From a virus, in IMG/VR virus record IMGVR_UViG_3300035670_000290, positions 1 through 52,561 of that record: DNA of 52,561 nt; one strand, written 5' to 3'. The translations under genes were made by a program, and so were the position numbers. Shown here piece after piece: positions 22,826 to 48,997 of this stretch (the stretch's first letter is position 1; every line of letters begins with the position of its first letter). The notes under the pieces were generated by a model that made no database searches, had not been told where the DNA came from, and worked only from the letters and a program-made list of their open reading frames with translations.

Positions 22826-22826
22826 A

Positions 22827-22834: not shown

Positions 22835-22860
22835 GTATAATACTAGGATACATGCGATAA

Positions 22861-28447: not shown

Positions 28448-30901
28448 ATGGCTGGCAAATTATCTGGAAATGCTATCGCGAATGGCACAGTCACGACTGT
28501 ACAGTTGGCTGCTGATGTTTCGCAAGTCATCGCTCAGGGCGGTGGTCCAAAAGTCACTGCTATTGAATATGCTAATGGTACTCTTGCCGCAGACAATACA
28601 GGCAACTCAGTTGTAATTGTTACAGGTACTGGATTCAATCCTGGAGTTGCTGTTTATGTGAATGGTGTTGTATCCTCAACAGTCACCAGAGCAAATGCTA
28701 ATTCTCTTTCTTTCACAGTTCCTGCGAATACTCAAGGAACAACAGTTCCGTTTTATGTTGTAAACACAGACGGTGGTTCGGCTGTCTATTTTCCTGGAAT
28801 TACACTATCAGGAACGCCAACATGGTTGACTAATGCAGATCTGGGCACTGTTTCTCCAAATACTGATGTTTCCCTCGCCCCTTTGTTTGCTTATGCAGAA
28901 GGCGATCTAACTCCAATCTATGCAACTGGCGGTACAGTAGCAAATATCAATAACTACACCATTCATACGTTTACATCAACCTCAACATTCAACGTTTCTT
29001 TTGGTGGTGGTGCAGTTGAATATCTCGTTGTCGCTGCGGGCGGCGGTGGTGGTAACGACATGGGCGGTGGTGGAGGTGGTGGCGGTGTACTCGCAAACAC
29101 CGTAAACGTCACTGCTACAAATTATACCATTACTATTGGTGCTGGTGGTGTTGGCGGAACAGGTTATGCTGCCACACCAACTGCAGGTGCTAATGGCAGT
29201 AATACTTCTTTCGGCAACACTATCATTGCAGTTGGTGGTGGTGGTGCTGGATCAGGTCACAGAACTGATGCTCCTTATGTTGGTGGTAATGCTAGAATTG
29301 GTGGTAGTGGCGGTGGTTCTGCTGCACGATATCGTTACTCAGGTGCACCACAATCATTAGGTGCAGATGCAATTGGTGTTCCGTCATGGCAACTTGGTAC
29401 TCGTGGTGGACACTCGCCAGAAACTCAAGTGAGTGATCAATATTACGCTGGCGGTGGTGGTGGCGCAGGTGGCAATACATCATTGGCTGGAATGGCTAAT
29501 GGAACCATCGATGCTGTAAGCGGAACTCGTGCTGGTCATGGTGGCGATGGATATTCTTCAAATATCTCAGGAACATCATACTATTATGCTGGTGGTGGCG
29601 GTGGCGCAAATCACACTGCTGGAACTGCTGGTAAAGGTGGCTATGGTGGTGGCGGTGGTGGTAGCAGCTGGGGCGCACCTGCAGGTATCGGTGGTCTTGG
29701 TGGTATTGCAAACGGATCAAATGGTGGATCTGCAGCTGGTGCTACTGTTGGTGGTGCTGGTGCAAATAATACTGGTGGTGGCGGTGGTGGTGGAAATCAC
29801 CAAGGAAATGGTGGCGCAGGTGGATCAGGTATTGTCTACATCAAATATCCAAAGAATGATACAGTCGTTAGTAATCTAACATATTCACTCGTTTCAGGCT
29901 CACTACCACCTGGACTCAATCTTGCTTCTAATGGTCAAATCACTGGTAACGTAACCAACCCACCAAACGTAAGCACAACTTATAACTTTACTGTTGCTGC
30001 TGGTCCTGACGCTGAAAATCAATACGGCGAAAGAACATTTAGCCTTACTGTGATCAATCCATCATTGGTGGCTACAGGTGGAACGATCACATATTCTGGC
30101 AATTATAAGATTCATACGTTTACATCTTCTGGAAGTTTTGTAGTTTCCGCAAATCCAAACAGTTTGAATCTTGAGTATCTCGTCGTTGGCGGAGGCGGTG
30201 GTGGTGGTGAAACTATCGGCGGTGGCGGTGGTGGCGGTAACGTTCAAACAGGTAATATCACATCTGCTGCTGTACAAACTTATACAATCACAGTTGGTGC
30301 TGGTGGTGCGGCTGGATATGATGGACAAAATAGTTCATATCCAGGCGGTGTGTCAGGAAACAATTCAAGTATCACAGCAACTGGTGTAAGTATTACTGCC
30401 AATGGCGGCGGCGGTGGTGGTGGATATAACAGCGGCGGTACAGGCACTGGTGGTGGTCACGGTGGTGGTCAAGGTGCTGGTGGCGGTGGTGGTGTTGCTG
30501 CTGGTCCTGGAAATAATGCTGGTGGTACATCAGGAACTAACAATAACTCAGGCGCAGGTGGCGGTGGAGCTGGTGGCGCAGGATCTCCATCATCAAGCGG
30601 CGTTTGTGGTGCGGGTGGTGCAGGTGCTGCATCAAGCATCAGCGGAACACTAGCCTACTATGGTGGTGGCGGTGGAGGTGGTGCTCGTGTTCCAAATGGT
30701 GGCAATGGTGCTACTGGTGGATCAAGTGTCGGTGGAACTGGCGGTACTGGTGGTGGCACTGGCACAGTAAGCGGAACTGCTGGCGCAACAAACACAGGTT
30801 CTGGTGGTGGCGGTGGTGGATATACAGATTCTGGTGCGGTAAATGGTAGCGGCGGTGCTGGTGGCTCAGGTGTGGTAATTATCCGTTATTTGGTAACATG
30901 A
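28448..30901 (+). CDS. Anchor + IPT + two glycine-rich domains + Ig-like protein
   Basis: 817 residues. N-terminal anchor motif (KLSGNAIANGTVTTVQL, then GGGPKV), an IPT/TIG-like domain (~36-125: VVIVTGTGFNPGVAVYVNGV), a glycine-rich domain (~190-465), a putative-Ig (He_PIG-type) domain (~480-545: SGSLPPGLNLASNGQITGNV) and a second glycine-rich domain (~575-817). The anchor is shared with nine other products in the window whose display regions differ. Adhesin-like function is inferred from domain content. The start is a clear ATG 8 bases after the previous stop. Confidence 0.8.
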   Translation: MAGKLSGNAIANGTVTTVQLAADVSQVIAQGGGPKVTAIEYANGTLAADNTGNSVVIVTGTGFNPGVAVYVNGVVSSTVTRANANSLSFTVPANTQGTTVPFYVVNTDGGSAVYFPGITLSGTPTWLTNADLGTVSPNTDVSLAPLFAYAEGDLTPIYATGGTVANINNYTIHTFTSTSTFNVSFGGGAVEYLVVAAGGGGGNDMGGGGGGGGVLANTVNVTATNYTITIGAGGVGGTGYAATPTAGANGSNTSFGNTIIAVGGGGAGSGHRTDAPYVGGNARIGGSGGGSAARYRYSGAPQSLGADAIGVPSWQLGTRGGHSPETQVSDQYYAGGGGGAGGNTSLAGMANGTIDAVSGTRAGHGGDGYSSNISGTSYYYAGGGGGANHTAGTAGKGGYGGGGGGSSWGAPAGIGGLGGIANGSNGGSAAGATVGGAGANNTGGGGGGGNHQGNGGAGGSGIVYIKYPKNDTVVSNLTYSLVSGSLPPGLNLASNGQITGNVTNPPNVSTTYNFTVAAGPDAENQYGERTFSLTVINPSLVATGGTITYSGNYKIHTFTSSGSFVVSANPNSLNLEYLVVGGGGGGGETIGGGGGGGNVQTGNITSAAVQTYTITVGAGGAAGYDGQNSSYPGGVSGNNSSITATGVSITANGGGGGGGYNSGGTGTGGGHGGGQGAGGGGGVAAGPGNNAGGTSGTNNNSGAGGGGAGGAGSPSSSGVCGAGGAGAASSISGTLAYYGGGGGGGARVPNGGNGATGGSSVGGTGGTGGGTGTVSGTAGATNTGSGGGGGGYTDSGAVNGSGGAGGSGVVIIRYLVT

Positions 30902-30902
30902 T

Positions 30903-32405
30903 ATGGCTGGTAAATTAGACGGCACAGCAATTGAAGCTGGAACAGTAGATACAAGTAAACTTGCAGGTGATGTGAGTGCAGTCATTCAGGCTGGCGGCGG
31001 ACCAAAGGTTATTTCAATTGGATATCCTGGAGATGATACTGCTGCGAATACTGGTGGTGGTCAAACAATCACTGTAACTGGATCAGGATTCAATCCTAAC
31101 GTTCGTGTTTTTATTGGAACAGTTTCTGGTGGATCAGAAGCACCAACTGTCTCTAGAGCAAATACAAATTCTCTGTCATTCACAACGCCAGCATTAGCAG
31201 CTGGCATCTACCAGTTATATGTTGTAAATCAGGATGGTGGAGTAGGAACGTTCCCAAGATTTCAGGTTTCTGGTGATCCAACTTGGGTTAGTCCATCATC
31301 GCTCGGACAGTTTGTCATTTCTTCAGGCATGCTCAAGCAACTTGAAGCCACTTCTGACTCAACAATATTGTATACCCTAGCAAACGGAAGTTCGCTCCCT
31401 GCTGGAACTTCATTGGCTTCTAATGGTTTGATTAGTGGATCTTTGACGTCACCTCCTGCAGCAGAAACAACTTATAACTTCAACGTAGTTGCAACTGACC
31501 AAGAAAACCAAAGTTCAGAAAAAGCATTCTCTTATACTGGAATCTTGTTCACGTTTAGCATTTCTCCAGCAGTAAACGGTCAGAGCAATATTGCTCTCAC
31601 AACAGGATCAACATTCAACATTACAACCAATGGCGCATATACTCTAACTCCTCTTGGTGATTTTAGCGCCAATGTTCAGGTTTGGGGAGCTGGAGGCGGC
31701 GGATATGGTGGCGGCACTGGTGGCGGTGGTGGATACTCAACAGGAATAATTTCCTTCAAGAACGGAGTTCAGTATAATGTAGTTGTTGGTTCTGCTGGAG
31801 CCAGCACTCCTTCTGGTCGTGCTGCATCTGGTGCTGGTGCTGGTTCAGGTATTGAATTCAAAACTAACTCAGATCCAATTATTGTTGCAGGTGGTGGCGG
31901 TGGTTCTGCGGGTGGTGGACCAGGACAATCAAGAGGCGGTGCTGGTGGTGGTGGTCCAACTGGCCAAAATGCTCTCAGCGTGGGAGCAGGTGGTTATGGT
32001 GGTACACAATCTGCTGCTGGTGCTGGTGGTTATGGTGGTCGTCGTGCTGGTGCTTCTGGCTCAGGAAGAAATGGTGGCGGTGGCAATACAGGTTCTCCAG
32101 CAGCTGCTGGTGGCGTTGGATTTGGTAATGGCGGAATCGGCACATACAATGGTGGTGACCAAGGCTCTGGTGGTGGCGGTGGTGGATATTGGGGTGGCGG
32201 TGAAGGTGGTGGTGACGCTGGCGGCTTCGGCGGTGGCGGCGGCTCAGGCTTCATAAATACTAATGTTGTGACTAGTGGGAATACGCAACAAGCAAATTAT
32301 AGATGGACTCCAAATACTTCGCCGCAATATTCTCCTAGCATTGGCAATGGTGGTCTTGGAACTTCGAATGGAAGTAACGGAGCAATTATCTTTATAGGAA
32401 TTTGA
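30903..32405 (+). CDS. Anchor + IPT + Ig + single glycine-rich domain protein
   Basis: 500 residues. N-terminal anchor (KLDGTAIEAGTVDTSKL, GGGPKV), IPT/TIG-like domain (~36-122), putative-Ig domain (~150-205: SSLPAGTSLASNGLISGSLT) and a glycine-rich domain of a second subtype (~215-500). This subtype begins FSISPAVNGQSNIALTTG and contains VQVWGAGGGGYGGG, and is closer to the gene at 36995 than to the two-domain proteins. It starts one base after the previous stop and is followed one base later by a 2OG oxygenase gene. Confidence 0.8.
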   Translation: MAGKLDGTAIEAGTVDTSKLAGDVSAVIQAGGGPKVISIGYPGDDTAANTGGGQTITVTGSGFNPNVRVFIGTVSGGSEAPTVSRANTNSLSFTTPALAAGIYQLYVVNQDGGVGTFPRFQVSGDPTWVSPSSLGQFVISSGMLKQLEATSDSTILYTLANGSSLPAGTSLASNGLISGSLTSPPAAETTYNFNVVATDQENQSSEKAFSYTGILFTFSISPAVNGQSNIALTTGSTFNITTNGAYTLTPLGDFSANVQVWGAGGGGYGGGTGGGGGYSTGIISFKNGVQYNVVVGSAGASTPSGRAASGAGAGSGIEFKTNSDPIIVAGGGGGSAGGGPGQSRGGAGGGGPTGQNALSVGAGGYGGTQSAAGAGGYGGRRAGASGSGRNGGGGNTGSPAAAGGVGFGNGGIGTYNGGDQGSGGGGGGYWGGGEGGGDAGGFGGGGGSGFINTNVVTSGNTQQANYRWTPNTSPQYSPSIGNGGLGTSNGSNGAIIFIGI

Positions 32406-32406
32406 T

Positions 32407-32979
32407 ATGAATCATTATAATGCGTTGACACTCTTTCCGTGTCATGTGATGTATAAAGAAGAAAAAAGTCTAGTCACAAAAGATTTGATTTCTACTTCTA
32501 AAGAGATTGTAATAAACAATGCAGATGCACCCTTTCATAGTAAGTGTATCAGTACTGTTCGAACAAAAAGTGATATTTTAGATTTACCAGAATTCGCCAA
32601 TATAAAGCAGTTTCTAGGTAATCTTGTTTATGTCTATTGCGAACAAATGAAAATCGACTACTCAAAATTACACATTTTAGATAGTTGGTTGAATCTATAT
32701 GAAGAGGGTGGTTATCAAGATTTACATAATCATCACGATTCGATGATTTCTGGAGTATTTTGGCTACAGAGCTCGGAAGAAAAAGACTTTGTTTTTCAGG
32801 CTCCATGGCACTTTATGCAACCAAGATTGCCGAATTATACTGAGAACAATCTAAACAATTGCCATAACGTGGAAATAAATAGCAATGTGGGTAGGGGAAT
32901 GGTGTTTATGAGTCATATGCTCCACCGAACTCTCCCAACGAAACAAGAAAGAATTAGCCTGAGTTTCAATGTAGGATAA
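32407..32979 (+). CDS. 2OG-Fe(II) oxygenase (TIGR02466-like), first copy
   Basis: 190 residues. YQDLHNHHDSMISGVFWLQ aligns with the iron-binding block of putative 2OG-Fe(II) oxygenases: H107-N-H109, followed by SGVFW in place of SGVYY. Near the C-terminus, HMLHRTLPTKQERISLSFNV supplies the distal histidine and the arginine that would bind 2-oxoglutarate. Length is normal for the family. Enzymes of this fold hydroxylate proteins, lipids or small molecules; the substrate here is unknown. It lies inside the fibre cluster between two glycine-rich genes, so a phage structural protein is a plausible substrate. A second member is encoded at 35431. Confidence 0.85.
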   Translation: MNHYNALTLFPCHVMYKEEKSLVTKDLISTSKEIVINNADAPFHSKCISTVRTKSDILDLPEFANIKQFLGNLVYVYCEQMKIDYSKLHILDSWLNLYEEGGYQDLHNHHDSMISGVFWLQSSEEKDFVFQAPWHFMQPRLPNYTENNLNNCHNVEINSNVGRGMVFMSHMLHRTLPTKQERISLSFNVG

Positions 32980-32981
32980 AG

Positions 32982-33212
32982 ATGTCAATAAATCTAATAC
33001 CTGGCGAAGCGATTGAGTCGAATACGATTACGACGACTCAAATGAATGAGGATACTTGGGCTCAAGTTTATGCGGCTCTAGCAGCAGCGAATGCGGCATA
33101 CGCAGCCGCTAATGCAGCGTATAATCAAGCAAATACCGCAAACTCGGGTGTAACAACAATTATCAGTACAGGAACTGGCGCATCTTTGGGTCTTGTGATC
33201 GCATTGAGCTGA
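32982..33212 (+). CDS. Short anchor/coiled-coil adaptor with hydrophobic tail (cassette 3)
   Basis: 76 residues. The anchor motif (IPGEAIESNTITTTQM) is followed by four alanine-rich heptads of AAYAAAN type like those of the long fibre at 11316, then a Gly/Ser linker and the hydrophobic tail SLGLVIALS. The protein is essentially anchor, short rod and tail, which would suit a stub fibre. It is the first gene of cassette 3 and very similar in plan to the gene at 48788. Confidence 0.75.
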   Translation: MSINLIPGEAIESNTITTTQMNEDTWAQVYAALAAANAAYAAANAAYNQANTANSGVTTIISTGTGASLGLVIALS

Positions 33213-33228
33213 TCAGTCGGAGAATAAA

Positions 33229-33555
33229 ATGGCAGAAGTATTCAAGATGTACAATCAAACACTGACGACGGCGAATGCCAACGTCTATGTTTGCCCAGCC
33301 AACACAACCGCGATCGTTATCATGGGTCAGGTTGCAAATATTGATGGTGCTAACTCTGCTGACGTCTCAGTTTTTGCTACTGATAGCAGCAATACAAGCA
33401 CCAAATATTTGGCTAAAACTGTTCCAGTTCCAGCAGATGCTGCGATCACCTTTCTAACAGGTAAACTAGTCCTAGAAGCAGGTGATTATATTACAGCAAA
33501 CTGCACAGCAAATGATCATCTAGATGTAACAGTAAGCGTACTACAACTATCGTAA
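33229..33555 (+). CDS. ~108-residue virion beta protein (cassette 3, middle gene)
   Basis: 108 residues, all-beta by pattern: ANVYVCPANTTAIVIMGQVA, AKTVPVPADAAITFLTGKLV, LEAGDYITANCTANDHLDVT. It is diverged from the 17552/36656/48999 group but has the same length, position and strand layout (VYxxPAxTxA near the N-terminus). A GGAG ribosome-binding site precedes the ATG. It ends one base before the glycine-rich gene. Inferred cap or adaptor. Confidence 0.76.
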   Translation: MAEVFKMYNQTLTTANANVYVCPANTTAIVIMGQVANIDGANSADVSVFATDSSNTSTKYLAKTVPVPADAAITFLTGKLVLEAGDYITANCTANDHLDVTVSVLQLS

Positions 33556-33556
33556 A

Positions 33557-35167
33557 ATGACTTCACCATTCATCGGAAAAAGAAATCTTCCTAGTGCTGA
33601 TGCCGCAAATATTGCGGGCATATGGTCAATGAATGACATCGGTGCGTTACGTTATTACAACTTCGTCACTGATACCAGCGGCTATTATGCTGTTTTGGCA
33701 TTCAAGTCATCTGGTGAATGGATATGTCCAGCTGGTGTCAATGAAGTTGAATATCTAATTCTTGCTGGCGGTGGTGGCGGAACCAATGGTGGAAATCCAG
33801 GACTCGGCGTTGGTGGCGGTGGTGGTGGATTTAGAACTGGATCTGGTCTTGCAGTGACTCCTGGAAGTACATACACAATCACCATTGGTGGCGGAGGAGG
33901 AGCCAGTTCTAACGGATCAAATTCATTTTTTGGAATATCACCTGGTGGAATCTTTTCTACTGGTGGTGGCGGTGGCGGTTCAAAATCAGGTGGTTCTGGT
34001 GGCGCACCTGCAGGTCTAGGAAATATAGTTGGATATTCTCCACCAGAAGGCTATGATGCAACTCCTGGACCGACACGTCGTGGTGGTGGTGCTGGTGGTC
34101 CAGGTGGACAAAATGCCACATCAACAATCACTGGCACAACTTTAGGTTATGGTGCTGGTGGTGGTGGAGAAGTATTAGACCCGAATGCAGGAGCACAAGG
34201 AGCATCACCTGGTTCTAGCGGTTTGGCTGATCCTGGTGGATCTGGTGTTGCCAACTTTGGTGGTGGTGGCGGCGGTGGCGGCAGTGGTCCAGGTGGAATG
34301 GGCGGTGGCGGATATGGTGGTCCAGGTGGATCAGGTGTTGTCATCCTTCGATACAAAATTGCATCAGGCAATTCAATTGTTTTCTACAATTCAACTAATT
34401 GGGTTGCTCCACCTGGTTCAGTATCTGTCGATTATCTCATCGTTGGTGGTGGTGGCGGTGGCGGTGCTTGGGTTGGTGGCGGTGGTGGCGCTGGTGGATT
34501 CCGCACTGGAACTGCATATCCAATCACTGCTGGAAATACTTACCCAATTACAATTGGTGCTGGTGGAGTTGGTTGGAGTTTAGGACCAAGTGGAAGTTTG
34601 ACTACAACAGGCACAGTTGGTGGTAATAGTACATTCGCAACTATCACCTCACTTGGTGGTGGATTTGGTGGTGGATACGGTCCGAATAATCCAGGATCTT
34701 CAACAGGTGGTTCTGGTGGTGGTGCTGGTGGTGGCGATGGCTACTCGACCACAGGATCTGCAGGAACTCCAGGACAAGGTTATGCGGGCGGCAATGGAAC
34801 AGGTCAGCCGCTATATTATGGTGGTGGTGGCGGTGGCGCTGGTGCTGCAGGTCAAAATGGCGGAAGTCCATATGGTGGTGGTGCAGGTGGCGCAGGTCTC
34901 TCATCATCACTTTCTGGCGCATCAGTGACCTATGCTGGTGGCGGTGGTGGTGGAAATAATGGAGGAATTCCGAGTGGCGCTGGCGGTGCTGGTGGTGGTG
35001 GATCTGGTTCTGGATTCAATACTAATCCAGCTGGTGGATCAACAGCAAATAATGGAATAGCCAATCTTGGTGGAGGTGGTGGTGGATCAGGTCAAGGGAG
35101 TTCATCACCACAATCCACAGGTGGTAGCGGCGGTTCTGGTATTGTAATTCTAAAAGTAAACTTCTAA
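33557..35167 (+). CDS. Glycine-rich adhesin-like protein, two poly-Gly domains (cassette 3)
   Basis: 536 residues. The unique N-terminus (IGKRNLPSADAANIAGIWSM) is followed by two glycine-rich domains (~63-262 and ~291-536), each opening with GEWICPAGVNEVEYLILAGG- or NWVAPPGSVSVDYLIVGG-type sequence and closing with GSGVVILRY or GSGIVILKV. It lacks the SPSQGNNGG insert found in the other two-domain members, so its internal loops differ. Adhesin role inferred. Confidence 0.82.
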   Translation: MTSPFIGKRNLPSADAANIAGIWSMNDIGALRYYNFVTDTSGYYAVLAFKSSGEWICPAGVNEVEYLILAGGGGGTNGGNPGLGVGGGGGGFRTGSGLAVTPGSTYTITIGGGGGASSNGSNSFFGISPGGIFSTGGGGGGSKSGGSGGAPAGLGNIVGYSPPEGYDATPGPTRRGGGAGGPGGQNATSTITGTTLGYGAGGGGEVLDPNAGAQGASPGSSGLADPGGSGVANFGGGGGGGGSGPGGMGGGGYGGPGGSGVVILRYKIASGNSIVFYNSTNWVAPPGSVSVDYLIVGGGGGGGAWVGGGGGAGGFRTGTAYPITAGNTYPITIGAGGVGWSLGPSGSLTTTGTVGGNSTFATITSLGGGFGGGYGPNNPGSSTGGSGGGAGGGDGYSTTGSAGTPGQGYAGGNGTGQPLYYGGGGGGAGAAGQNGGSPYGGGAGGAGLSSSLSGASVTYAGGGGGGNNGGIPSGAGGAGGGGSGSGFNTNPAGGSTANNGIANLGGGGGGSGQGSSSPQSTGGSGGSGIVILKVNF

Positions 35168-35183
35168 TAGAGGGTGAATAATC

Positions 35184-35429: not shown

Positions 35430-35430
35430 C

Positions 35431-36036: not shown

Positions 36037-36040
36037 AATA

Positions 36041-36412
36041 ATGGCGCATTTTGCTCAATTAGATGCTAACAATGTCGTAACACAAGTTATCGTGGTGGCG
36101 AACAAGGATACTGCTGACGCTAATGGTGTTGAGAAAGAACACATTGGTGCAGCATTCTGCGAGCGTTTGCTCGGCGGTACTTGGAAACAAACATCATACA
36201 ATGCAACCCTCCGCAAAAACTATGCAGGAATTGGTTACACATATGATGCTGATCGCGACGCTTTCATTCCACCAAAACCATACGCTTCTTGGGTGATCAA
36301 TAACGAGACATGCACATGGGAAGCACCAGTTGCTCAGCCAACTGATGGTAAGATGTACAGATGGGATGAAGAAACATTGTCATGGGTTGAAATTCCTGGC
36401 ACTGAAGTCTAA
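36041..36412 (+). CDS. Conserved small tail-region protein
   Basis: 123 residues: MAHFAQLDANNVVTQVIVVA, NKDTADANGVEKEHIGAAFC, NYAGIGYTYDADRDAFIPPK, PYASWVINNETCTWEAPVAQ. It is a very common protein or domain in tail clusters of marine phages, with no function known to me. It is probably small and beta-rich, with conserved aromatics. Its stop overlaps the ATG of the next gene by one base, which links it translationally to cassette 4. Confidence 0.78.
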   Translation: MAHFAQLDANNVVTQVIVVANKDTADANGVEKEHIGAAFCERLLGGTWKQTSYNATLRKNYAGIGYTYDADRDAFIPPKPYASWVINNETCTWEAPVAQPTDGKMYRWDEETLSWVEIPGTEV

Positions 36413-36654
36413 TGACAATCAGAGAGTTGCCTGGATCTGCTATTCAAGACGCAACAATTACTGTTGCGCAGCTGAGTAATACAGCATTTGCAATCCAGTC
36501 AAATACTACTTTGTCTGTAAATGCGAATAGTATCAACTTTGTAAATTCAGCAACTGTACAAGTGACAGTTGAAGAAGGTCAGAGTGGCGCAGCCAACGTA
36601 ACTCTCCGTGGATCTGATACTGGTTTCAATCCATTTATGTTAGCGGGAATGTAA
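36412..36654 (+). CDS. Short anchor protein with hydrophobic tail (cassette 4)
   Basis: 80 residues: anchor motif (LPGSAIQDATITVAQL), a short beta segment (LSVNANSINFVNSATVQVTV) that also occurs in the long fibres, then the tail GFNPFMLAGM, close to the HPFLFL tail of the giant fibre. It is the first gene of cassette 4. It has too little sequence for a shaft and probably acts as an adaptor. Confidence 0.72.
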   Translation: MTIRELPGSAIQDATITVAQLSNTAFAIQSNTTLSVNANSINFVNSATVQVTVEEGQSGAANVTLRGSDTGFNPFMLAGM

Positions 36655-36655
36655 A

Positions 36656-36988
36656 ATGCCAACAGAGTATAAAGTTTTAGGACAGGTTGCTCCATCGTCA
36701 AACTCAATGACGACTTTGTATACCGTTCCTGCAGCAACACAAGCCGTTGTTTCTTCTTTGACTGTGTGCAATAGATCACAATCAGCAAAATCATTTACAA
36801 TTGCTGTTCGTCCAGATGGAGCAGTGCTTGCAAATGAGCATTATATTGCTTTCGATACAGCAGTTGCAGCAGTTGATACAGTAACTCTGACTATTGGTAT
36901 GACTCTTGGTGCTGATGATGTTGTATCAGTCGCATCATTTGACGCTCATAATTGCAGCTTCACACTGTTCGGTTCAGAAGTGACGTGA
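36656..36988 (+). CDS. ~110-residue virion beta protein (cassette 4, middle gene)
   Basis: 110 residues: YKVLGQVAPSSNSMTTLYTV, PAATQAVVSSLTVCNRSQ, HYIAFDTAVAAVDT, with C-terminal SFTLFGSEVT. It is clearly paralogous to 17552 and 48999 along its full length. It starts one base after the hydrophobic-tail gene and is followed 6 bases later by a glycine-rich gene. Confidence 0.82.
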   Translation: MPTEYKVLGQVAPSSNSMTTLYTVPAATQAVVSSLTVCNRSQSAKSFTIAVRPDGAVLANEHYIAFDTAVAAVDTVTLTIGMTLGADDVVSVASFDAHNCSFTLFGSEVT

Positions 36989-36994
36989 TGAAAT

Positions 36995-37927
36995 ATGTCA
37001 ATCAGATCACTCGCTAACACTACAAATTTATCGACGCAGAAATTCAGTGCGCGGCGAGTATCGAGTTCTGCTAATTTATCTTCAAAAAAATTCAATGTTC
37101 GGAGTATTATCAGCCCTGTGCAAGGATATTTTGTCACGATTAGTCCTGCATATAATGGCAATACAACGATTGACTTGACGACAGCGAACATAACACTCGC
37201 AAATTCTGGAACTTGGACAATCGTTCCGCTAGTGACTTTTGCAGTAAATGTTGCTATGTGGGGTGCTGGTGGACAAACAGCATCAAGTGCAGCAGGAACT
37301 GCTGGTGCTGGTGGATATTCACAGGGAACTGTTACGTTCAATTCAGGAACAAGTTACACAATTCGTGTTGGTCAGTGGGATGGCGGCGGTGCTGGTCCTG
37401 GTGATGCTGGTAATGGTGGTGGATATACTGGAGTATTTGCTGGAACCGAAACATTTGCGAACTCTGTCATAATCGCTGGTGGTGGCGGTGGTGGTGCCAA
37501 ATATTATAATTCTACGCAAAATGCTGGAGCTGGTGGAGGACCATCAGGTCAAACAAGTAGTGGTGGTGGTGGAACACAATCTGCTGGTGGTGCTGGTGGT
37601 GTCAATGGTGTATACCCAGCATCAGGTACTGGCGCTGCTGGTGGACAACTGACTGGTGGCGCAGGTGCTACAGGTAATCAAGGATATCCAGGTGGTGGCG
37701 GTGGATCTGGTTATTATGGAGGAGGCGGTGGTTTAGCTCGTGTTGGTGGTGATGGCATTTCTGGTGCTGGTGGTGGTGGATCAGGTTATTTGCATCCGTC
37801 GCTAGTTTCAAACGGAAATACTCAAACTGGATCAACAAGTACTGCAGCAAATAGCGCAAGCAGTTTGAGAGGCACCTCAGGTAATGCAGATTCGAATGGC
37901 AGAATTATACTTCTAAGAGCATTATAA
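36995..37927 (+). CDS. Glycine-rich adhesin-like protein, single domain (cassette 4)
   Basis: 310 residues. The N-terminus contains a repeated LSTQKFSARRV / LSSKKFNVRSI pair. One glycine-rich domain (~45-305) of the subtype seen at 30903: VTISPAYNGNTTIDLTTANI, VAMWGAGGQTASSAAG, ending NGRIILLRAL. It lacks the VEYLVVAGGG opening of the two-domain members. It is the third gene of cassette 4 and the last gene before a late-promoter-like element. Confidence 0.8.
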   Translation: MSIRSLANTTNLSTQKFSARRVSSSANLSSKKFNVRSIISPVQGYFVTISPAYNGNTTIDLTTANITLANSGTWTIVPLVTFAVNVAMWGAGGQTASSAAGTAGAGGYSQGTVTFNSGTSYTIRVGQWDGGGAGPGDAGNGGGYTGVFAGTETFANSVIIAGGGGGGAKYYNSTQNAGAGGGPSGQTSSGGGGTQSAGGAGGVNGVYPASGTGAAGGQLTGGAGATGNQGYPGGGGGSGYYGGGGGLARVGGDGISGAGGGGSGYLHPSLVSNGNTQTGSTSTAANSASSLRGTSGNADSNGRIILLRAL

Positions 37928-37930: not shown

Positions 37931-37952
37931 AAGGTATAAAGGAATAAAATAA

Positions 37953-40577: not shown

Positions 40578-40583
40578 TCTATC

Positions 40584-41912
40584 ATGACAATATTCAAACT
40601 TCCAGGAACATCGATTGTAAGCAACACAATCACCACGACTCAGTTGGTGACGACGGTTGTCAATCAGATTTCTCAAGGTGGTGGACCGAAAGTTTCTGGA
40701 ATCACTTATCCAAACAGCGCGACTGCTGCAGCCAATACAGGAAGTGAAACAGTTGTTCTGACTGGAACAGGATTTGAGTCTGGTGTTCAAATCTATATCA
40801 ACGGAAATGCTGTTCCGTCAGTCACTCGAACAAACTCCAATTCTGTTTCGTTCACAACTGCAGCACTCAGCAGCGCCACATATCCAGTTTATGTTGTCAA
40901 TCCTGACGGCGCAACAGCAATCTTGATTCCAGGGATGCAAGTTTCTGGAAAGCCAGTTTGGATAACGACTTCTCCATTGACATCTTGGAGTAAATCAGCA
41001 GCACTTTCGCGAGTATTGCAGGCAAACAGCGACTCTTCTGTCACATATGCTTTAGCAGATGGAAGTTCGCTGCCTTCTGGAATTACACTTGCAGCAAACG
41101 GACTTTTGAGCGGAACATTATCTTCTCCGCCAGCCGATACAACGACCTATAACTTCACCGTTGTTGCTACTGACGCCGAAGGGCAGACGACATCTAGTGC
41201 ATTCAGCATCGACGCTACTGCAATTGCAGCGTTTGTGAATGACGCTAATACAATATTGTTGATACACGCAGATGGAGCAAATAACTCCACGACGTTCACT
41301 GATGATAATGCTAGTGGAGTAAGATCACCAACAAGCACTGTTGGAGCTGGTGGTGGTGTCAAGATAAGCACTGCTCAATATAAATTTGGTACTGGATCAG
41401 CTGTATTTGATGGTAGTGGTGATCACCTAACAGCCACTATACCTAATGGAGCTCCTCAGCAAGGCGATATAACTATAGAACTTTGGGCAAGATTCAACGC
41501 TCTTCCAAGTACAGGCAGCGGCGGTTATATGATTATCACCAGTTGTTCTGGCGCAGAACCTTATATACTCGTCAGTAATAATGGTAGCGGCAACCCATCA
41601 GTTTCATTCGGCTTCAATGGAAAATATGGAACTGCAAGTCTAACATCTACGACCATCACCACAAATACTTGGTATCATATAGCAGCAGTACGCTATAATG
41701 GTACTTGGAAAGTTTATTGGGATGGTGTTGATATGGGCACTATCAATAATGATAGTAACTGGAATACTCTATCGTCAACATTTGAGCCTCTTGCATCTAC
41801 AACGTTCTTTGGTAAGTTTAGTGACGACAGAGGAAGTTGGAATGGATATATGGACGAAATTCGCGTCAGTAAGGTTGCTAGATACACCAGCAATTTCACA
41901 CCAGGAACATAA
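40584..41912 (+). CDS. Anchor + IPT + Ig + one LamG domain
   Basis: 442 residues, the short member of the LamG group. Anchor motif (LPGTSIVSNTITTTQL, GGGPKV), IPT/TIG-like domain (~36-122), putative-Ig domain (~128-208) and a single LamG domain (~215-442: AVFDGSGDHLTATI, WYHIAAVRYNGTWKVYWDG, SKVARYTSNFTPGT). It lacks the first two LamG domains of its neighbours, and its end stops at FTPGT instead of FTxPTxALxDK. It may have arisen by loss of modules or represent the ancestral form. Confidence 0.83.
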   Translation: MTIFKLPGTSIVSNTITTTQLVTTVVNQISQGGGPKVSGITYPNSATAAANTGSETVVLTGTGFESGVQIYINGNAVPSVTRTNSNSVSFTTAALSSATYPVYVVNPDGATAILIPGMQVSGKPVWITTSPLTSWSKSAALSRVLQANSDSSVTYALADGSSLPSGITLAANGLLSGTLSSPPADTTTYNFTVVATDAEGQTTSSAFSIDATAIAAFVNDANTILLIHADGANNSTTFTDDNASGVRSPTSTVGAGGGVKISTAQYKFGTGSAVFDGSGDHLTATIPNGAPQQGDITIELWARFNALPSTGSGGYMIITSCSGAEPYILVSNNGSGNPSVSFGFNGKYGTASLTSTTITTNTWYHIAAVRYNGTWKVYWDGVDMGTINNDSNWNTLSSTFEPLASTTFFGKFSDDRGSWNGYMDEIRVSKVARYTSNFTPGT

Positions 41913-41916
41913 GTAA

Positions 41917-44550
41917 ATGCCGCGCAAATTAGATGGAACATACATTCAAACTGGATCAATTACAACGACTCAGTTATCATCGAATGTTACAGAACAAATT
42001 TCTGCGGGCGGTGGACCAAGAGTTTCTTCTCTGATCTATCCTGGTGACGATACTGCTGCGAATACAGTTGGCGGTCAGACAGTTTATATCAACGGTTCTG
42101 GCTTTGAAACAAACAACGCCATCTATATCAATGGCAATGCTGTTCCATCAAAGTCATTTATCAGCGCGAGCAATGTTTCGTTTACGACACCAGCACTTTC
42201 TGCTGGAATCTATCCAGTCTACTTTATCAATACGGATACTGGTGCCACAGCAATTTTTGTTCCAGGTTTGACCGTTTCTGCTGATCCAACATGGGTAACT
42301 GCAGCAGGAAGTCTAAATGCTTCTCAAGATGAAACATCCGCATGGAGTTATTCTTTGTCAGCAACTGGTGATGATCCAATTACATATGCTCTTGCAGATG
42401 GCAGTTCATTGCCAACTGGAATTTCTTTAGCAGCAAATGGTGTTATCTCAGGAACATTATCTTCACCACCAGGTACAGAAACGACTTATACATTCTCTGT
42501 TGTTGCAACAGATGCTCAGAATCAAGATTCTACAAGACAATTTACTGTGACAACGACCAGTGGTGAAGGTGTTCTGTTTGCCAACAACGTTCTCTTGATT
42601 CACGCTGATGGAACTAACAATCAGAACAATCATGCGTTTCTAGATTCTTCGAATAATAACTTCACAATCACAAGATATGGTAATGCTACGCAGGGATCGT
42701 TTAGTCCATTTAGTCAGACTGGATGGAGTAACTATTTTGATGGAAACGGTGATTACTTGTCATTTCCAAGTGATGCAGCCTTTGGTTTTGGCACAGGTGA
42801 TATTACTATAGAATGTTGGTTTTACCATACAAGCAGATCAACAACAGCAACATTATTCTCAAACGCAAATGATACACTAAATTTATATATCAATACTTCT
42901 GGTGTTTTTGGTGTTTATGATGGTTCTGTCAGAAATAGTAGCCAAACAGTTCCTCTAAATTCATGGAATCACTTCGCTTATGTTCGCTCTTCAGGAACAG
43001 CAAAATTATATTATAATGGAACAGAAGTATTATCATTCTCAAGTTCTACAAATTATGGCACTTCTGCAGTTAGAATTGGTGTGAATTATGGTGGTGGTTC
43101 TGGATCGGATTACGCAACAGGTAGCATCAGCAATTTAAGAGTTGTCAAAGGCACTGCACTTTACACAGAAGCCTTCACACCATCAACAACACCACTTCAA
43201 CCTATCGCAAACACTTCTCTGCTAACCTGTCAGTCTAATCGATTTATTGACAATAGCACCAATAATCTAACCATCACTCGTAATGGTGATACTTCTATTC
43301 AAGCCTTCTCTCCATTCGCACCAACTGCTGCATACTCAACAGCGAATGTTGGTGGTAGTGGGTATTTTGATGGAAGTGGAGATTATCTCACATTACCATC
43401 AAATGATTCTGCTTTCAATTGCGGCGCTGATAGTTTTACGCTTGAATTTTGGTATTATGATGATGGAACTTCAACATTATATCCTAATATTTTTGGATCT
43501 AATGATTGGACTTCGGGTGTCGGTGGAATCAATATAAGATACAACAATACTGGTAATGCAAATAAATTTTATGTAGCGAAATATGCTGGGAACTCTACAC
43601 CTAATGGTGGATCTGGTGTAAATGAATTGATGCTAACAGCTAATACATATGCACCAAAATGTTGGCATCATGTAGCCTTCGTGAGAAATGGGAATAACTT
43701 TAGAATTTATGTAAATGGTGTGAAAGATGCAGAAACCACATCTACAATTTCTGTTGACTGGAATTTGAATTCAGCAGGACCAAGAATTGGTGGTGGTAAT
43801 TGGGATGGAGCAAACAGTAATATCAAGGCTTATGTTTCTGGTCTAAGATTGATCAAAGGCGTTGCGCTTTATACAGACAACTTCACACCCCCAACTGCAC
43901 CATTGACAAATATCGCCAACACATCTCTACTCCTCAACTTCACCAACGCTGGTATTTTTGATCAAACTGCGAAGAATGTAATTGAAACACAAAGTGATGC
44001 AAAAATCAGTACTAGCGTGTATAAGTATGGGACTGGCTCAGTGTATTTTGATGGGACTGGAGACTGGTTGTTGGCTCCTAGCAATGTACTTTTTGATATT
44101 GGTGGAGATTTTACTATTGAGATGTGGTTTTATGCCACCTCAGTAGCACCTACATATCAAGGTCTTTGTGGACGCCGAGCGAGTGCTGCATCATTTGGTC
44201 CATTTTCCATGGGTCTCAATGGATCAGCAATTTTGTTTAGTCTCTCAACCTCTGGTAGTTCATGGGCACTAAATTCTACTGGAGGCACGGTTACTGCAAA
44301 TACATGGAATCATGTCGCGTTTGTTCGAAGTGGAACTTCCTGTGTTGCATACCTAAATGGTACGTCTGTAGTTACAGGTACGGTTTCTGGTGCTCTTGCA
44401 AGTAGTTCGCAAAAGTTAGCCATTGGATCATTTACCAGTGATGGTTCTGATTTGTTTACTGGGTATATCGACGATTTCCGATTTACACGTGGTCAGGCTC
44501 GCTACACATCTAACTTCACACCACCAACTTCTGCACTCAAGGACAAATAA
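41917..44550 (+). CDS. Anchor + IPT + Ig + three LamG domains
   Basis: 877 residues with the same plan as 37953. Anchor (KLDGTYIQTGSITTTQL), IPT (~36-125), Ig (~128-212), LamG 1 (~215-430), LamG 2 (~431-665) and LamG 3 (~667-877). The join segments NTSLLTCQSNRFIDNSTNN and NTSLLLNFTNAGIFDQTAKN are almost the same as in the next gene, including runs of identical DNA. It ends ARYTSNFTPPTSALKDK. Its stop overlaps the next start by one base. Confidence 0.85.
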   Translation: MPRKLDGTYIQTGSITTTQLSSNVTEQISAGGGPRVSSLIYPGDDTAANTVGGQTVYINGSGFETNNAIYINGNAVPSKSFISASNVSFTTPALSAGIYPVYFINTDTGATAIFVPGLTVSADPTWVTAAGSLNASQDETSAWSYSLSATGDDPITYALADGSSLPTGISLAANGVISGTLSSPPGTETTYTFSVVATDAQNQDSTRQFTVTTTSGEGVLFANNVLLIHADGTNNQNNHAFLDSSNNNFTITRYGNATQGSFSPFSQTGWSNYFDGNGDYLSFPSDAAFGFGTGDITIECWFYHTSRSTTATLFSNANDTLNLYINTSGVFGVYDGSVRNSSQTVPLNSWNHFAYVRSSGTAKLYYNGTEVLSFSSSTNYGTSAVRIGVNYGGGSGSDYATGSISNLRVVKGTALYTEAFTPSTTPLQPIANTSLLTCQSNRFIDNSTNNLTITRNGDTSIQAFSPFAPTAAYSTANVGGSGYFDGSGDYLTLPSNDSAFNCGADSFTLEFWYYDDGTSTLYPNIFGSNDWTSGVGGINIRYNNTGNANKFYVAKYAGNSTPNGGSGVNELMLTANTYAPKCWHHVAFVRNGNNFRIYVNGVKDAETTSTISVDWNLNSAGPRIGGGNWDGANSNIKAYVSGLRLIKGVALYTDNFTPPTAPLTNIANTSLLLNFTNAGIFDQTAKNVIETQSDAKISTSVYKYGTGSVYFDGTGDWLLAPSNVLFDIGGDFTIEMWFYATSVAPTYQGLCGRRASAASFGPFSMGLNGSAILFSLSTSGSSWALNSTGGTVTANTWNHVAFVRSGTSCVAYLNGTSVVTGTVSGALASSSQKLAIGSFTSDGSDLFTGYIDDFRFTRGQARYTSNFTPPTSALKDK

Positions 44551-47216
44551 TGGCTCGTAAAATTCCAGGTGGCGCGATTCAAGCCAATACAATTACAGTA
44601 ACACAGTTGCAGACGACTGTTGTCAGTCAGATTTCAGCAGGTGGTGGTCCTCGCGTCTCCTCTCTGATCTATCCTGGAGATGATACTGCAGCAAACACTG
44701 CTGGCGGTCAGACAGTGTATATTACAGGTTCTGGTTTCGCTGCAAATGCGAATGTGTATATCAACGGAAACGCTGTTCCTTCGATCTCCTTTATTTCAGC
44801 AGGTAATCTAGCAATTACAACTCCTGCTCTTTCTTCTGCGACTTATCCAGTTTATGTAATCAATCCAGAAGATGGTGCAACAGCCATTCATATTCCAGGA
44901 TTGAGAGTTTCTGGTGAACCAGTCTGGGTCACCTCTGCTGGAAGTCTTGCTGCTTCTCAAGATGAAGGTTCTGCTTGGAGTTATAGTGTATCAGCAACCA
45001 GTGATTCTTCAGTCACTTATGCTCTTGCTGGTGGCAGTTCATTGCCAACAGGAATTACACTGGCTGCTAACGGATTGATCAGCGGAACATTGAGTTCACC
45101 TCCTGGAACTGAGACGACATACAACTTTTCAGTGATTGCAACTGATGCTGAAAATCAAAGCGCATCATCTAGAGAATTTAGTGTGACTGTTTCTTCAGGT
45201 GAGGGTGTGTTGTTTGCTAACAATGTTTTATTGATTCACGCAGATGGAACCAACAATCAGAACAATCATACATTCGTAGATTCTTCGAATAATAATCTAA
45301 CAATCACAAGATATGGTAATGCTACACAAGGAACGTTTAGTCCATTCAGTCAGACTGGATGGAGTAACTATTTTGATGGTAGCGGAGATAGACTAACAAT
45401 AGCTGATAATACAGCATTGCGTTTCGGTACAGGAGATTTTACTATAGAATTTTGGATGTATCCGAGTCAAACAAATGCGTATATGCGTCCAATTGGAACA
45501 GGAAATACTGAAGCAGGTGCGTGGTCTATTATTTTAAACAATGATGCTACATTTACTCTAGCCTTTGCCACTAGTGGAGTATTTTCTTCTGCTATTTCTT
45601 ATTCAGCCAACATTTGGCAACATATCGCTATCGTAAGAAGCGGCACCACTATTTCTTGTTTTGTTAACGGAATCAGACAACAAACAACTACTAGCAGTTA
45701 TGATTTAAATGCAGCAGCAAGTGTGTTCATAGGATATACTGATGCTGCATCAGCTCAAGCATTTTTAGGATATATGTCTAATGTTCGTTTGGTGAAGGGG
45801 ACCGCAGTATATGATCCATCATTATCGACCCTGACAGTACCAACATCACCACTCACCGCTATTACCAACACTTCTCTGCTGACCTGTCAGAGCAACCGCT
45901 TCGTAGACAATAGCACCAATGCATTCACGATTACTCGCGCTGGCGACACTTCAGTTCAAGCCTTCTCTCCATTCGCACCATCAATTGCATACTCACCAGC
46001 TGCTGTTGGTGGTAGTGTATACTTTGATGGATCAGCTGATTATTTGATGCCAGCAAATAGCACAGCGACAGATTTAGGTATCAGTCAACAACCATTTACT
46101 CTGGAGTGGTGGACTTATTTCACAACCTCTTCTGGTGGACAATATATCATATCCAAAGGTGGCGGTGCTGGTGCATGGAATAGTACAAATGGATGGCAAT
46201 ATATTCTTAGTATAGAATTGAGTAGTGGTGTTATAAGTCTTGGTTATTATAACGGAAGTAGTTACACTTATTGGCAACCAGCATTCACTGTTTCTACTGT
46301 TTTAGGTAGATGGTCTCACATGGCTATGTCCTATGATGGAACCAATTTATCTTTCTATATAAACGGAACAAGAATCGGCACAACAACAGCAACCAATTTC
46401 AGCAAACCTTCTGCATCAGACAAGTGTAGTATAGGTTCTACTGCAGGTGTTACTGAGAGTTATCACTATAGCGGTTATGTTTCTGATCTAAGAATAGTTC
46501 GCGGATCAGCTGTCTATAATCCAACACTCTCAACGTTGACTGTTCCAACAGCACCACTGACAAACATCGCAAACACATCTCTACTCCTCAACTTCACCAA
46601 CGCTGGCATCTTCGATCAAACAGCGAAGAATGTAATTGAAACTGTTGGTGATGCGAAAGTTAGCACTTCACAATATAAGTATGGTACTGCTTCGATGTAC
46701 TTTGATGGTAGTGGGGATTATATCCAAACGCCATCGAGCCCTCAATTTGCATTTGGTGGTGTGGATTTTACAATAGAGTGTTGGGTTTATGGTGTAAGTA
46801 AAGTTCGTTCATTCCCATACATTTATTCAAATAACATAGCGTTTGGAAGCAATTTTATTGGGTTGATTCATAACCACGACTCTTATTCAAATAAGGTTGT
46901 ATTTTATGTTTATAACTCATCAACTTCACCAATTTTGCAAAGCACAACTTCTATCGGAAATAATGAATGGTTTCATGTTGCAGTTTCTAGAAGCGGAAAT
47001 ACTTTTAGATTGTTCATAAATGGTGCGCTTGAAGCCAACACCACATACAGTGGATCTATCGATGGTGGTGGGACAAAACAGGCTCGTATAGGATCAGGTC
47101 CTACTTTGAGTAGTGACGAATTTAATGGTTATCTCGATGACTTCCGTATCACCAAGGGCTACGCTCGTTATACTGCTAACTTCACTCCACCAACTGCTGC
47201 GCTGAGGGACAAGTAA
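44550..47216 (+). CDS. Anchor + IPT + Ig + three LamG domains
   Basis: 888 residues. Anchor (KIPGGAIQANTITVTQL, GGGPRV), IPT (~36-125), Ig (~128-212), LamG 1 (~215-438), LamG 2 (~440-672) and LamG 3 (~674-888). It is closest to the upstream gene. Anchor, IPT, Ig and domain borders are highly conserved, while the faces of the LamG domains differ, as expected for adhesins diversifying after duplication. It ends ARYTANFTPPTAALRDK and abuts the next ATG. Confidence 0.85.
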   Translation: MARKIPGGAIQANTITVTQLQTTVVSQISAGGGPRVSSLIYPGDDTAANTAGGQTVYITGSGFAANANVYINGNAVPSISFISAGNLAITTPALSSATYPVYVINPEDGATAIHIPGLRVSGEPVWVTSAGSLAASQDEGSAWSYSVSATSDSSVTYALAGGSSLPTGITLAANGLISGTLSSPPGTETTYNFSVIATDAENQSASSREFSVTVSSGEGVLFANNVLLIHADGTNNQNNHTFVDSSNNNLTITRYGNATQGTFSPFSQTGWSNYFDGSGDRLTIADNTALRFGTGDFTIEFWMYPSQTNAYMRPIGTGNTEAGAWSIILNNDATFTLAFATSGVFSSAISYSANIWQHIAIVRSGTTISCFVNGIRQQTTTSSYDLNAAASVFIGYTDAASAQAFLGYMSNVRLVKGTAVYDPSLSTLTVPTSPLTAITNTSLLTCQSNRFVDNSTNAFTITRAGDTSVQAFSPFAPSIAYSPAAVGGSVYFDGSADYLMPANSTATDLGISQQPFTLEWWTYFTTSSGGQYIISKGGGAGAWNSTNGWQYILSIELSSGVISLGYYNGSSYTYWQPAFTVSTVLGRWSHMAMSYDGTNLSFYINGTRIGTTTATNFSKPSASDKCSIGSTAGVTESYHYSGYVSDLRIVRGSAVYNPTLSTLTVPTAPLTNIANTSLLLNFTNAGIFDQTAKNVIETVGDAKVSTSQYKYGTASMYFDGSGDYIQTPSSPQFAFGGVDFTIECWVYGVSKVRSFPYIYSNNIAFGSNFIGLIHNHDSYSNKVVFYVYNSSTSPILQSTTSIGNNEWFHVAVSRSGNTFRLFINGALEANTTYSGSIDGGGTKQARIGSGPTLSSDEFNGYLDDFRITKGYARYTANFTPPTAALRDK

Positions 47217-47774
47217 ATGCCAACAGTTTATAAACTTCCAGGTAGTGCTGTTCAAGCAAATACATTGACCACAACTCAGTTGGCTTCTAATATAGCACCA
47301 ACAGACAGAGTCTTGAAAACTGGCGATACAATGACAGGTCAGTTGACAATTTCTGCTGGTGGTTTGAATATGGAAACTACCACGACTCTTCAGCAAACAA
47401 AAGAACGAGTCAATGTGAGCGCAACAGCAATGAGTGCAAATCTAACTGTTGATCTTCTAAACGGTGCTGTGACTTATCTAACGTCGAATTCTACTGCTAA
47501 TTGTACTCTCAATTTTAGAGGCAATAGCACAACAACATTAGATTCTATTTTGTCGAATGGGCAATCAATGACGTCATTGGTTCTAATCACCAATGGCGCT
47601 ACAGGTTATTTGATTTCTAATGTACAAATTGATGATATTCCCGTAACTCCAAAGTGGTCGGGCAACTCAGCTCCAACAGCAAACACTGACGCTATTGATG
47701 CGTTTGGGTTCACAATCATCAAGACAGCTGCAAATACATATACTGTTCTTGGTTCAAAAACTGAATTTGTGTAA
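47217..47774 (+). CDS. Anchor protein with conserved virion domain
   Basis: 185 residues. Anchor motif (LPGSAVQANTLTTTQL), a short KTGDTMTGQLTISAGGLN segment typical of phage fibre shafts, then a ~130-residue domain (ERVNVSATAMSANLTVDLLN, FRGNSTTTLDSILSNGQSM, TPKWSGNSAPTANTDAIDAF, YTVLGSKTEFV) that recurs in structural proteins of T4-like marine phages. No enzyme motif is seen. It starts directly after the LamG gene stop. Confidence 0.8.
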   Translation: MPTVYKLPGSAVQANTLTTTQLASNIAPTDRVLKTGDTMTGQLTISAGGLNMETTTTLQQTKERVNVSATAMSANLTVDLLNGAVTYLTSNSTANCTLNFRGNSTTTLDSILSNGQSMTSLVLITNGATGYLISNVQIDDIPVTPKWSGNSAPTANTDAIDAFGFTIIKTAANTYTVLGSKTEFV

Positions 47775-47779
47775 TAATC

Positions 47780-48760
47780 ATGCCTCTGATCTCTACAATT
47801 GCTAGTGGCTCAATTTCTGTCGTTGGTGGTGTAGGAATTCAAATCGCCAGAAGAAAAGTTATTTCTGGTGCTGCTGGACCAATTTTTGTTGAATATCTAG
47901 TTCTTGCTGGTGGTGGTGGAGGCGGCGGCATCGGTGCAGGTGGTGGAGCTGGTGGTTATCGCACAGGTACAGATTTTGAAGTAACTCCAGGAACAACATA
48001 TACCATCACTGTTGGTAGTGGTGGTACTGGCACTGGCTCTCCATACTCAGTCGGTGGAAGTGGAACTCAATCACTATTTGGTGCAATCACATCCGCTGGC
48101 GGTGGAGGTGGTGGAGGCTATAATTTAGCTGGCGGAAATGGTGGTTCAGGCGGCGGTGGTGCTGCCCCAGCAAATGCTGGTGGTTCAGGTAACACTCCAT
48201 CAACTTCTCCATCTCAAGGTAATGGTGGAGGTTCTGGAGCACTAGCAACACAACGTTTTCTTGGTGGTGGTGGAGGCGGCGCAAGTGCTCCTGGCGGCAG
48301 CGCAAGTTCTTCTCCTGCTCCACGTGGTGATGCAGGTGGTGGCGGTGATGGTTTAGCATCAACGATCACAGGCGTTTCTGTGACTCGCGGTGGCGGTGGT
48401 GGTGGTTGTAGCGGAATTCGAGGAGCCAGTCCAAGTAATCCAGGCACTCCTTCGCAGCAAAAGGCTGGTGGAGCAGGTGGTGGTGGGACAGGTGGTGGAT
48501 CAACTCCAGCGACAGGTGCAGCTGGTAATGGTGGCACCAATCTAGGTGGTGGTGGAGGTGGTGGTGGATTCCATGGCACTCCAACTCCTGCAGGTCCTGG
48601 AGGTAGTGTCAGAAATGGTGGAAACGGTGGTTCTGGTGTGGTCATCATCAAATATCCAGACACAAGTCCTGAAGCCACAACAACAGGTAGCCCAACCGTC
48701 ACCGTTTCTGGTGGATTTAGAATTTATGTTTTCAATGCCTCTGGTAGTATCACATTCTAA
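47780..48760 (+). CDS. Glycine-rich adhesin-like protein, single domain
   Basis: 326 residues. Short N-terminus, then one glycine-rich domain (~37-295) with FVEYLVLAGGGGGG, GTTYTITVGSGG, GNTPSTSPSQGNGGG and VVIIKYP. The last ~30 residues (TVTVSGGFRIYVFNASGSITF) resemble the beginning of a second glycine-rich module (compare ITYSGNYKIHTFTSSGSF in 28448), so the protein ends where a second domain would begin. It is not preceded by a 110-residue gene, unlike the five cassette members. Confidence 0.8.
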   Translation: MPLISTIASGSISVVGGVGIQIARRKVISGAAGPIFVEYLVLAGGGGGGGIGAGGGAGGYRTGTDFEVTPGTTYTITVGSGGTGTGSPYSVGGSGTQSLFGAITSAGGGGGGGYNLAGGNGGSGGGGAAPANAGGSGNTPSTSPSQGNGGGSGALATQRFLGGGGGGASAPGGSASSSPAPRGDAGGGGDGLASTITGVSVTRGGGGGGCSGIRGASPSNPGTPSQQKAGGAGGGGTGGGSTPATGAAGNGGTNLGGGGGGGGFHGTPTPAGPGGSVRNGGNGGSGVVIIKYPDTSPEATTTGSPTVTVSGGFRIYVFNASGSITF

Positions 48761-48763
48761 ATA
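48757..48763 (+). promoter_or_regulatory. Putative late promoter element CTAAATA
   Basis: CTAAATA overlaps the stop of the glycine-rich gene and ends 24 nt before the ATG at 48788. Same arrangement as at 320-326. Confidence 0.55.
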
Positions 48764-48787
48764 CAGTAGAATTGATAGGGACGAATA

Positions 48788-48997
48788 ATGGCAATATACA
48801 AATTTCCTGGCTCCGCTATTGAAGCCAACACAATTACATCAACGCAGATGGATAGCAATACTTGGAATCAGGTATACACTGCTTTGTCTACTGCGAACAC
48901 TGCATACGATCAAGCCAATGCAGCATTTGCGCAAGCGAATACTGGTGGTGGCGGTAGTGGTGGATTCAGTAAATCTTTCCTCATGAGTGGACTCTAA
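48788..48997 (+). CDS. Short anchor/coiled-coil adaptor with hydrophobic tail (cassette 5)
   Basis: 69 residues: anchor motif (FPGSAIEANTITSTQM), about three alanine heptads (TAYDQANAAFAQANT), a GGGGSGG linker and the hydrophobic tail FSKSFLMSGL. Same plan as 32982. It is the first gene of cassette 5. Its stop ends one base before the next start. Confidence 0.75.
   Translation: MAIYKFPGSAIEANTITSTQMDSNTWNQVYTALSTANTAYDQANAAFAQANTGGGGSGGFSKSFLMSGL

Follow-up and report, generated by a model that had tools for sequence, protein, structure and literature searches.

A conserved N-terminal segment and type-matched tail-connector pairs in the fibre island of a viral contig suggest exchangeable fibre parts in aquatic phages

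We have investigated the viral contig IMGVR_UViG_3300035670_000290, a genome fragment of 52,561 nucleotides (nt) referred to here in its entirety as the window, in which ten open reading frames (ORFs) open with the segment [PL]GxAIxxNTITTTQL, termed the tag. The segment had been reported in a preliminary description of the window, and all ten ORFs start exactly at the positions given there, with the motif at residues ∼4–22; these and all window features described below as carriers, anchors, connectors or distal proteins lie on the + strand. Six of the ten carriers continue with a short helix, the sequence GGGP and a TIG/Ig-like domain, five of the six also having a second Ig-like domain, followed by LamG or glycine-rich sequence. 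Glycine-rich cargo is present in the single-chain carriers at 28448..30901 (TIG-like domain, tag in the first ∼22 codons, glycine-rich by Pfam) and 30903..32405 (TIG domain, tag diverged to TVDTSKL, glycine-rich by composition). Laminin_G_3 domains follow the TIG and Ig-like domains in the remainder, three each in the single-chain carrier at 37953..40577 and the carriers at 41917..44550 and 44550..47216 (residues 1–217 of the latter were modelled) and one at 40584..41912, in which the first domain is TIG-like. The LamG carriers are clearly paralogous to each other, and PHROG matches of their LamG part are in some cases labelled head or virion structural, 'baseplate wedge' matches falling there as well. 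The tag is combined with a phrog_5906 domain at 47217..47774, and three stubs of 69–80 amino acids (aa), at 32982, 36412 and 48788, contain no recognised domain and no display domain. The display regions, previously described as unrelated, are so between these classes but not within the six carriers that share GGGP and the TIG/Ig-like domain; the range of cargo described, from a stub to three LamG domains, was confirmed, the stub at 48788 comprising 69 aa.

Taken as a literal pattern the motif is loose, with G7 invariant in the alignment, ≥90% conservation of I10, T14, T16 and Q19, and diverged versions in 30903 and in 36412 (ATITVAQL). Profiles constructed from nine members recovered the tenth in every case, with expect values (E) of 2.7e-5 to 8.8e-12, while none of the other ORFs in the set of 936 from the window exceeded 5 bits. 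Members scored 38.9–51.2 bits, and the highest-scoring decoy, from a set of 23,663 reversed ORFs taken from the window and its relatives, reached 9.0 bits. Pairwise identity is 55% in the conserved block (columns 5–22), ∼24% in the flanks and, when the stubs and 47217 are compared with each other, 14–16% beyond the motif. Codon agreement at identical motif residues is 45%, compared with 39% expected from codon usage. The motif amino acids are conserved while synonymous sites are near-random, indicating an old motif that selection maintains, rather than the product of fresh duplication. Chance as the origin of the motif was set aside on the basis of the decoy scores, the codon analysis and the leave-one-out recovery. 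In a profile check on viral contigs the motif was observed at the protein starts of ∼30 further paralogues with differing continuations. Seven motif proteins are present in contig G002 alone, indicating that many paralogues are normal for this lineage. No match to the ∼50-aa N-termini was detected by tblastn against 50,697 phage records, the motif profile produced chance matches only against PDB sequences (xanthan lyase, E>3), and a scan of ∼85,000 prokaryote genomes returned 36 pattern matches, of which 0 were confirmed.

Each stub has a hydrophobic tail at its C-terminus. At most 16 bases beyond the stub lies a gene encoding a connector protein of ∼110 aa, and after it a gene for a glycine-rich protein. 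The stub at 32982..33212 (76 aa, alanine-rich stalk) carries the type-B tail ..SLGLVIALS (33183–33212) and precedes a type-B connector of 108 aa (33229..33555) and a distal glycine-rich protein (33557..35167). The 80-aa stub at 36412..36654 ends in the type-A tail ..FNPFMLAGM (36625–36654), its type-A connector of 110 aa is at 36656..36988 and its distal glycine-rich protein, with the N-terminus MSIRSLANT.., at 36995..37927. The stub at 48788..48997, also with an alanine-rich stalk, ends in the type-A tail ..FSKSFLMSGL (48968–48997) and is followed by a 110-aa type-A connector (48999..49331) and a distal glycine-rich protein with the N-terminus MGFKTGSFLSIANRGLNP (49333..51054). In the three stubs, then, the tagged protein itself has no display region. 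The second gene downstream encodes it, and the C-terminal tail and connector apparently provide the link, an arrangement absent from the preliminary description. Similar cassettes are observed behind collagen-like anchors. One anchor, with another N-terminal tag (13760..17542), has the type-A tail ..FHPFLFL (17513–17542), a type-A connector (17552..17884) and a distal glycine-rich protein (17892..19655), and a second, with an INFPSSP tag (19691..20725), has a divergent type-C tail ..SFAFSYFLGF (20696–20725), a type-C connector of 119 aa (20727..21086) and a distal glycine-rich protein (21086..22825).

The pairing of tails and connectors by type is also observed in public viral contigs, in which profile scans confirmed >400 type-A and >500 type-C connector stretches among the matches listed. 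Tails were examined in 71 non-redundant cassettes per type with leave-out profiles of the last ten residues at a threshold of >6 bits, the background being 1645 other C-termini of the same contigs from which redundant true tails had been removed. The type-A profile recognised 55 of the 71 genes upstream of a type-A connector but only 15 of the 1645 background C-termini, and the type-C profile 64 of 71 compared with 6 of 1645; several of these background matches themselves resemble true tails. Cross-type matches, A tails to the C profile and the reverse, numbered 0. Typical tails are HPFLLMGA or NPFLLAGM in type A, GKAIAMAIVFGG in type C and SLGLVIALS in type B, and the upstream anchors vary from ∼42 to >1600 residues with many unrelated N-termini, which were classed by a crude regular expression and used by eye only. 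In 56 type-A cassettes, connector distance correlates with that of the last 9 anchor residues (r=0.32) and of the first 9 distal residues (r=0.31), both with permutation p<0.001, compared with r values of -0.03 to 0.14 for other 9-mers tested in the same genes. The permutation leaves shared ancestry in, for which the neighbouring 9-mers provide the control. At the level of sequence, type-A coupling is confined to 9 residues at each junction. Some genes have a clear C or A tail but no recognised connector directly after them (L161 3091–4077, L197 1265–4441 and L056 4201–5961), and these may be remnants of broken cassettes or point to additional types of connector.

The type-A connector at 48999 is predicted to fold as an eight-stranded beta sandwich with a predicted local distance difference test (pLDDT) score of 92.5. 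A Foldseek comparison with the PDB returned generic beta-sandwich or jelly-roll matches only, with template modelling scores of at most ∼0.6, and the connector sequence had no match in Pfam or among PDB sequences. Window connectors of types A and B match phrog_1276, a family of unknown function (E of 1e-7 to 5e-10), to which one type-C relative matches weakly (5e-5) and another does not; type A also matches phrog_11338 (tail fibre). Profile comparison of the types gave probabilities of 96% for A-B, 98% for B-C and 3.7% for A-C, suggesting that A is related to B and B to C, A and C not being linked directly. Structural matches to the type-A connector among predicted viral proteins, 144 at E≤0.001, include proteins named virion or virion structural in S-SCSM1, S-TIM5 and MaMV-DC, and parts of tail-fibre-like proteins of S-CAM1 and P-SSM2. 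Virion proteins of S-SCSM1, considering the phage as a whole, were determined by mass spectrometry (PMC9602691). HTVC010P gp24, annotated as a 'virion structural protein', matches type B, and the gene upstream of it ends in ..TALAIALG. In the 380-aa S-CAM1 tail fibre protein YP_007673128 (L219 2848–3990, − strand), the connector domain occupies the N-terminal half, in two connector-like copies as judged by eye, and the C-terminus ..VAFSIALG resembles a B tail, suggesting that chains may extend beyond three parts. A connector gene between proximal and distal fibre genes is found in the window cassettes, in relatives and in P-SSM2 (PSSM2_293-294-295), and the proteins of this system are mostly annotated 'hypothetical' in the isolates looked at.

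The same tails and the same kind of cargo are found behind different front ends. Tail B is carried by a stub with the LPG tag in the window and G002 and by an INFPNSP-type protein in G008 and L027, anchors with tail C are of many kinds, the TFSVK and INFP types among them, and a TIG-LamG protein of the same kind in L226 (7992–10574) has a different first segment, MTTKITVDNLAP (MTTKITVDNLAPTLVTTI). N-terminal tag and cargo therefore move independently. A start similar to the MTTKITVDNLAPTLVTTI segment is also seen on a type-C anchor in L187. All three connector types are present within one contig in the window, G002, G008, L027 and L045, a setting that would require the junctions to be matched. 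The phrog_5906 carrier at 47217 is directly followed by a glycine-rich protein (47780..48760, + strand) with no connector gene between, and possibly the two are joined without a separate connector. A C-terminus of the phrog_5906 type, ..TYTVLGSKTEFV, also ends tagged proteins in L014 and L098; combined with the absence of a connector after 47217, this may indicate a fourth junction type.

The tagged genes lie in a fibre island in which Pfam and PHROG scans identified an endolysin, collagen-like fibres, glycine-rich proteins and a 2OG-Fe(II) oxygenase. In the close relatives G001–G003 and G008 the same island is adjoined by what we take to be T4-like replication genes, their names having been read from the sequence by eye. 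The T4 major capsid family was present in a single 173-kb contig among 15 relatives, and the T4-type late promoter TATAAATA occurred once, compared with 1.6 expected. We regard the window phage as T4-like, and its island agrees with the host recognition cluster known from marine T4-like phages, an extensive and variable fibre region of pelagimyophages and cyanomyophages in which LamG/concanavalin, collagen and further adhesin domains occur (PMC7029224). The two are the same kind of island, N-terminal tags, tails and connectors not being described in the portion of that work available to us. At the island edge, the two halves of the endolysin (9041–10249) match two different PHROG endolysin families, and an open frame at 51886–52561, TYLYNKNVNVLNANVIVSNTNPLPVTAITN.., is interrupted by the contig end, with intact homologues at the same edge in G002 and G008. 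Collagen blocks at 13760–17542 and 19691–24069 alternate with repeated DUF4183-like segments (VFVN.VLQPN..Y), and the ORF at 22861 has a C-terminal Peptidase_S74 chaperone domain. The putative oxygenase (32407–32979, by Pfam) and a second ORF resembling it by eye (35431–36036) both lie between fibre cassettes; fibre proteins, the collagen-like ones for instance, could be their substrates. A small protein at 36041–36412, MAHFAQLDANNVVTQVIVVAN.., is also encoded in the islands of G002, G008, L045 and Pontimonas phage phiPsal1 (L104 9245–9625).

We consider it probable that the tag docks fibre or adhesin subunits to a shared virion site, with cargo either in a single chain or split over three genes. 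This reading is based on the N-terminal position of the segment, its selection and exchangeability, and the precedent of branched receptor-binding systems (PMC6872550), and is further supported by the relation of the connector fold to named virion proteins, the S-CAM1 fusion and the tail-fibre-family neighbours. The shared attachment site with interchangeable cargo proposed in the preliminary description is sustained to the extent that the segment is N-terminal, modular, under selection, repeated in ∼30 further paralogues and replaced by another tag in L226. The segment would function as an N-terminal address tag, attaching the subunits to the common site, and the chains are probably held together, conceivably as trimers, by the short helical or coiled-coil region that follows it. 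In single-chain carriers (28448, 30903, 37953, 40584, 41917 and 44550) the tag would be joined through TIG/Ig domains to LamG or glycine-rich parts, which may bind receptors. In the split fibres (32982/33229/33557, 36412/36656/36995 and 48788/48999/49333), tag and stalk would present the hydrophobic tail to the ∼110-aa beta-sandwich connector, which in turn would bind the glycine-rich protein through its first ∼9 residues. The occurrence of tails and connectors in matching types A, B and C would allow several fibres to assemble in one cell without mixing, and N-terminal tags and tails would recombine between phages. Several observations weigh against this reading. Only about ten viral contigs are known to carry the tag, several of them near-identical, and no docking partner was found for it, the carrier contigs being few, fragmentary and often closely related; a virion location of the tagged proteins is indicated by the neighbouring genes only. 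In the AlphaFold monomer model of 44550, residues 1–20 are mostly low-confidence coil (pLDDT 52–57) with an uncertain helix at 17–30 and a TIG domain near 90, although a monomer neither confirms nor refutes a docking element that orders on assembly. Type-C tails, being too uniform for an informative co-variation test, gave r=0.18 (p=0.045), and no correlation was observed between the type-C distal start and connector distance.

It is possible, though doubtful, that the segment does no more than nucleate trimerisation or folding of each fibre, through the first beta element and a coiled coil, and that the carriers attach at different places. A helix, or an alanine-rich repeat in the stubs 32982 and 48788, does directly follow the motif, and a similar stretch, GSVTTAKL, is internal to one ORF of contig L041; however, 36412 and 47217 have no alanine-rich stalk, the motif is found almost only at the very protein start, a restriction that does not apply to folding nuclei, which may also lie inside a protein or at its C-terminus, and its place is taken by other N-terminal tags on proteins with the same type of cargo or with the same tails. 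Decoration of the head or tail tube by the tagged proteins, as whiskers or head fibres outside the baseplate and tail-fibre network, is unlikely. Ig-like domains occur on phage heads, which together with the head and virion structural labels on the LamG part would favour such a location, but most PHROG and Pfam matches of the genes neighbouring the tagged ORFs are to tail-fibre or baseplate families. The island also resembles the host recognition cluster of T4-like marine phages (PMC7029224). That the ten are recent tandem duplicates with N-termini not yet diverged and a motif without common role is highly improbable, as, despite the tandem arrangement and the paralogy of the LamG carriers, synonymous sites at the motif are near saturation and the motif is common to proteins without any other similarity and persists in distant contigs.

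The T4 long tail fibre, gp34-gp35-gp36-gp37, is split over several genes, with a small hinge or connector between its proximal and distal parts. The window fibre is similarly split, with a small connector gene between proximal and distal genes, but unlike T4 gp35 the window connectors are ∼110 aa, with several types per genome, and have short C-terminal tails as their counterparts. No relationship of the connector to a known hinge protein was detected by Pfam, PDB sequence, PHROG (unknown function or tail fibre) or PDB fold (generic matches), and phrog_1276, although of the same family by profile match, has no stated function, partner or neighbouring-gene rule. Anchor-branched receptor-binding proteins are known from K1-5, G7C, KP32 and relatives, in which short N-terminal peptides, conserved between several such proteins (a hepta- and an undecapeptide in K1-5), link them to an adapter or anchor protein (PMC6872550). 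Several window carriers likewise have a common conserved N-terminal peptide; in contrast to those systems, in which the branch point is a T4gp10-like domain, the window adds a C-terminal peptide and a separate small connector gene, a further exchangeable joint. Pfam and PHROG scans detected no T4gp10-like domain in the carriers or their neighbours, the contig being a fragment and no profile-profile search having been made.

A description of a three-gene code was not found in the literature, most subscription journals lying outside the search, which is weak evidence of novelty. The evidence tips slightly towards the wider proposal of a three-part fibre construction in several lineages of aquatic tailed phages, the parts being separately exchangeable and specified by orthogonal short-peptide codes. 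The N-terminal tag would pick the virion site, the ∼9-residue tail would pick a connector type out of three or more, and the distal adhesin would be picked by the connector through the first ∼9 residues of the adhesin. If true, one phage could assemble many fibres in parallel without cross-assembly and swap any part by recombination. Fibre modularity would become a testable set of short peptide-domain interactions. For aquatic phages, a rule readable from sequence would show which parts of a fibre go together, and with it receptor-binding ends could be identified in metagenomes and each matched to its anchor.

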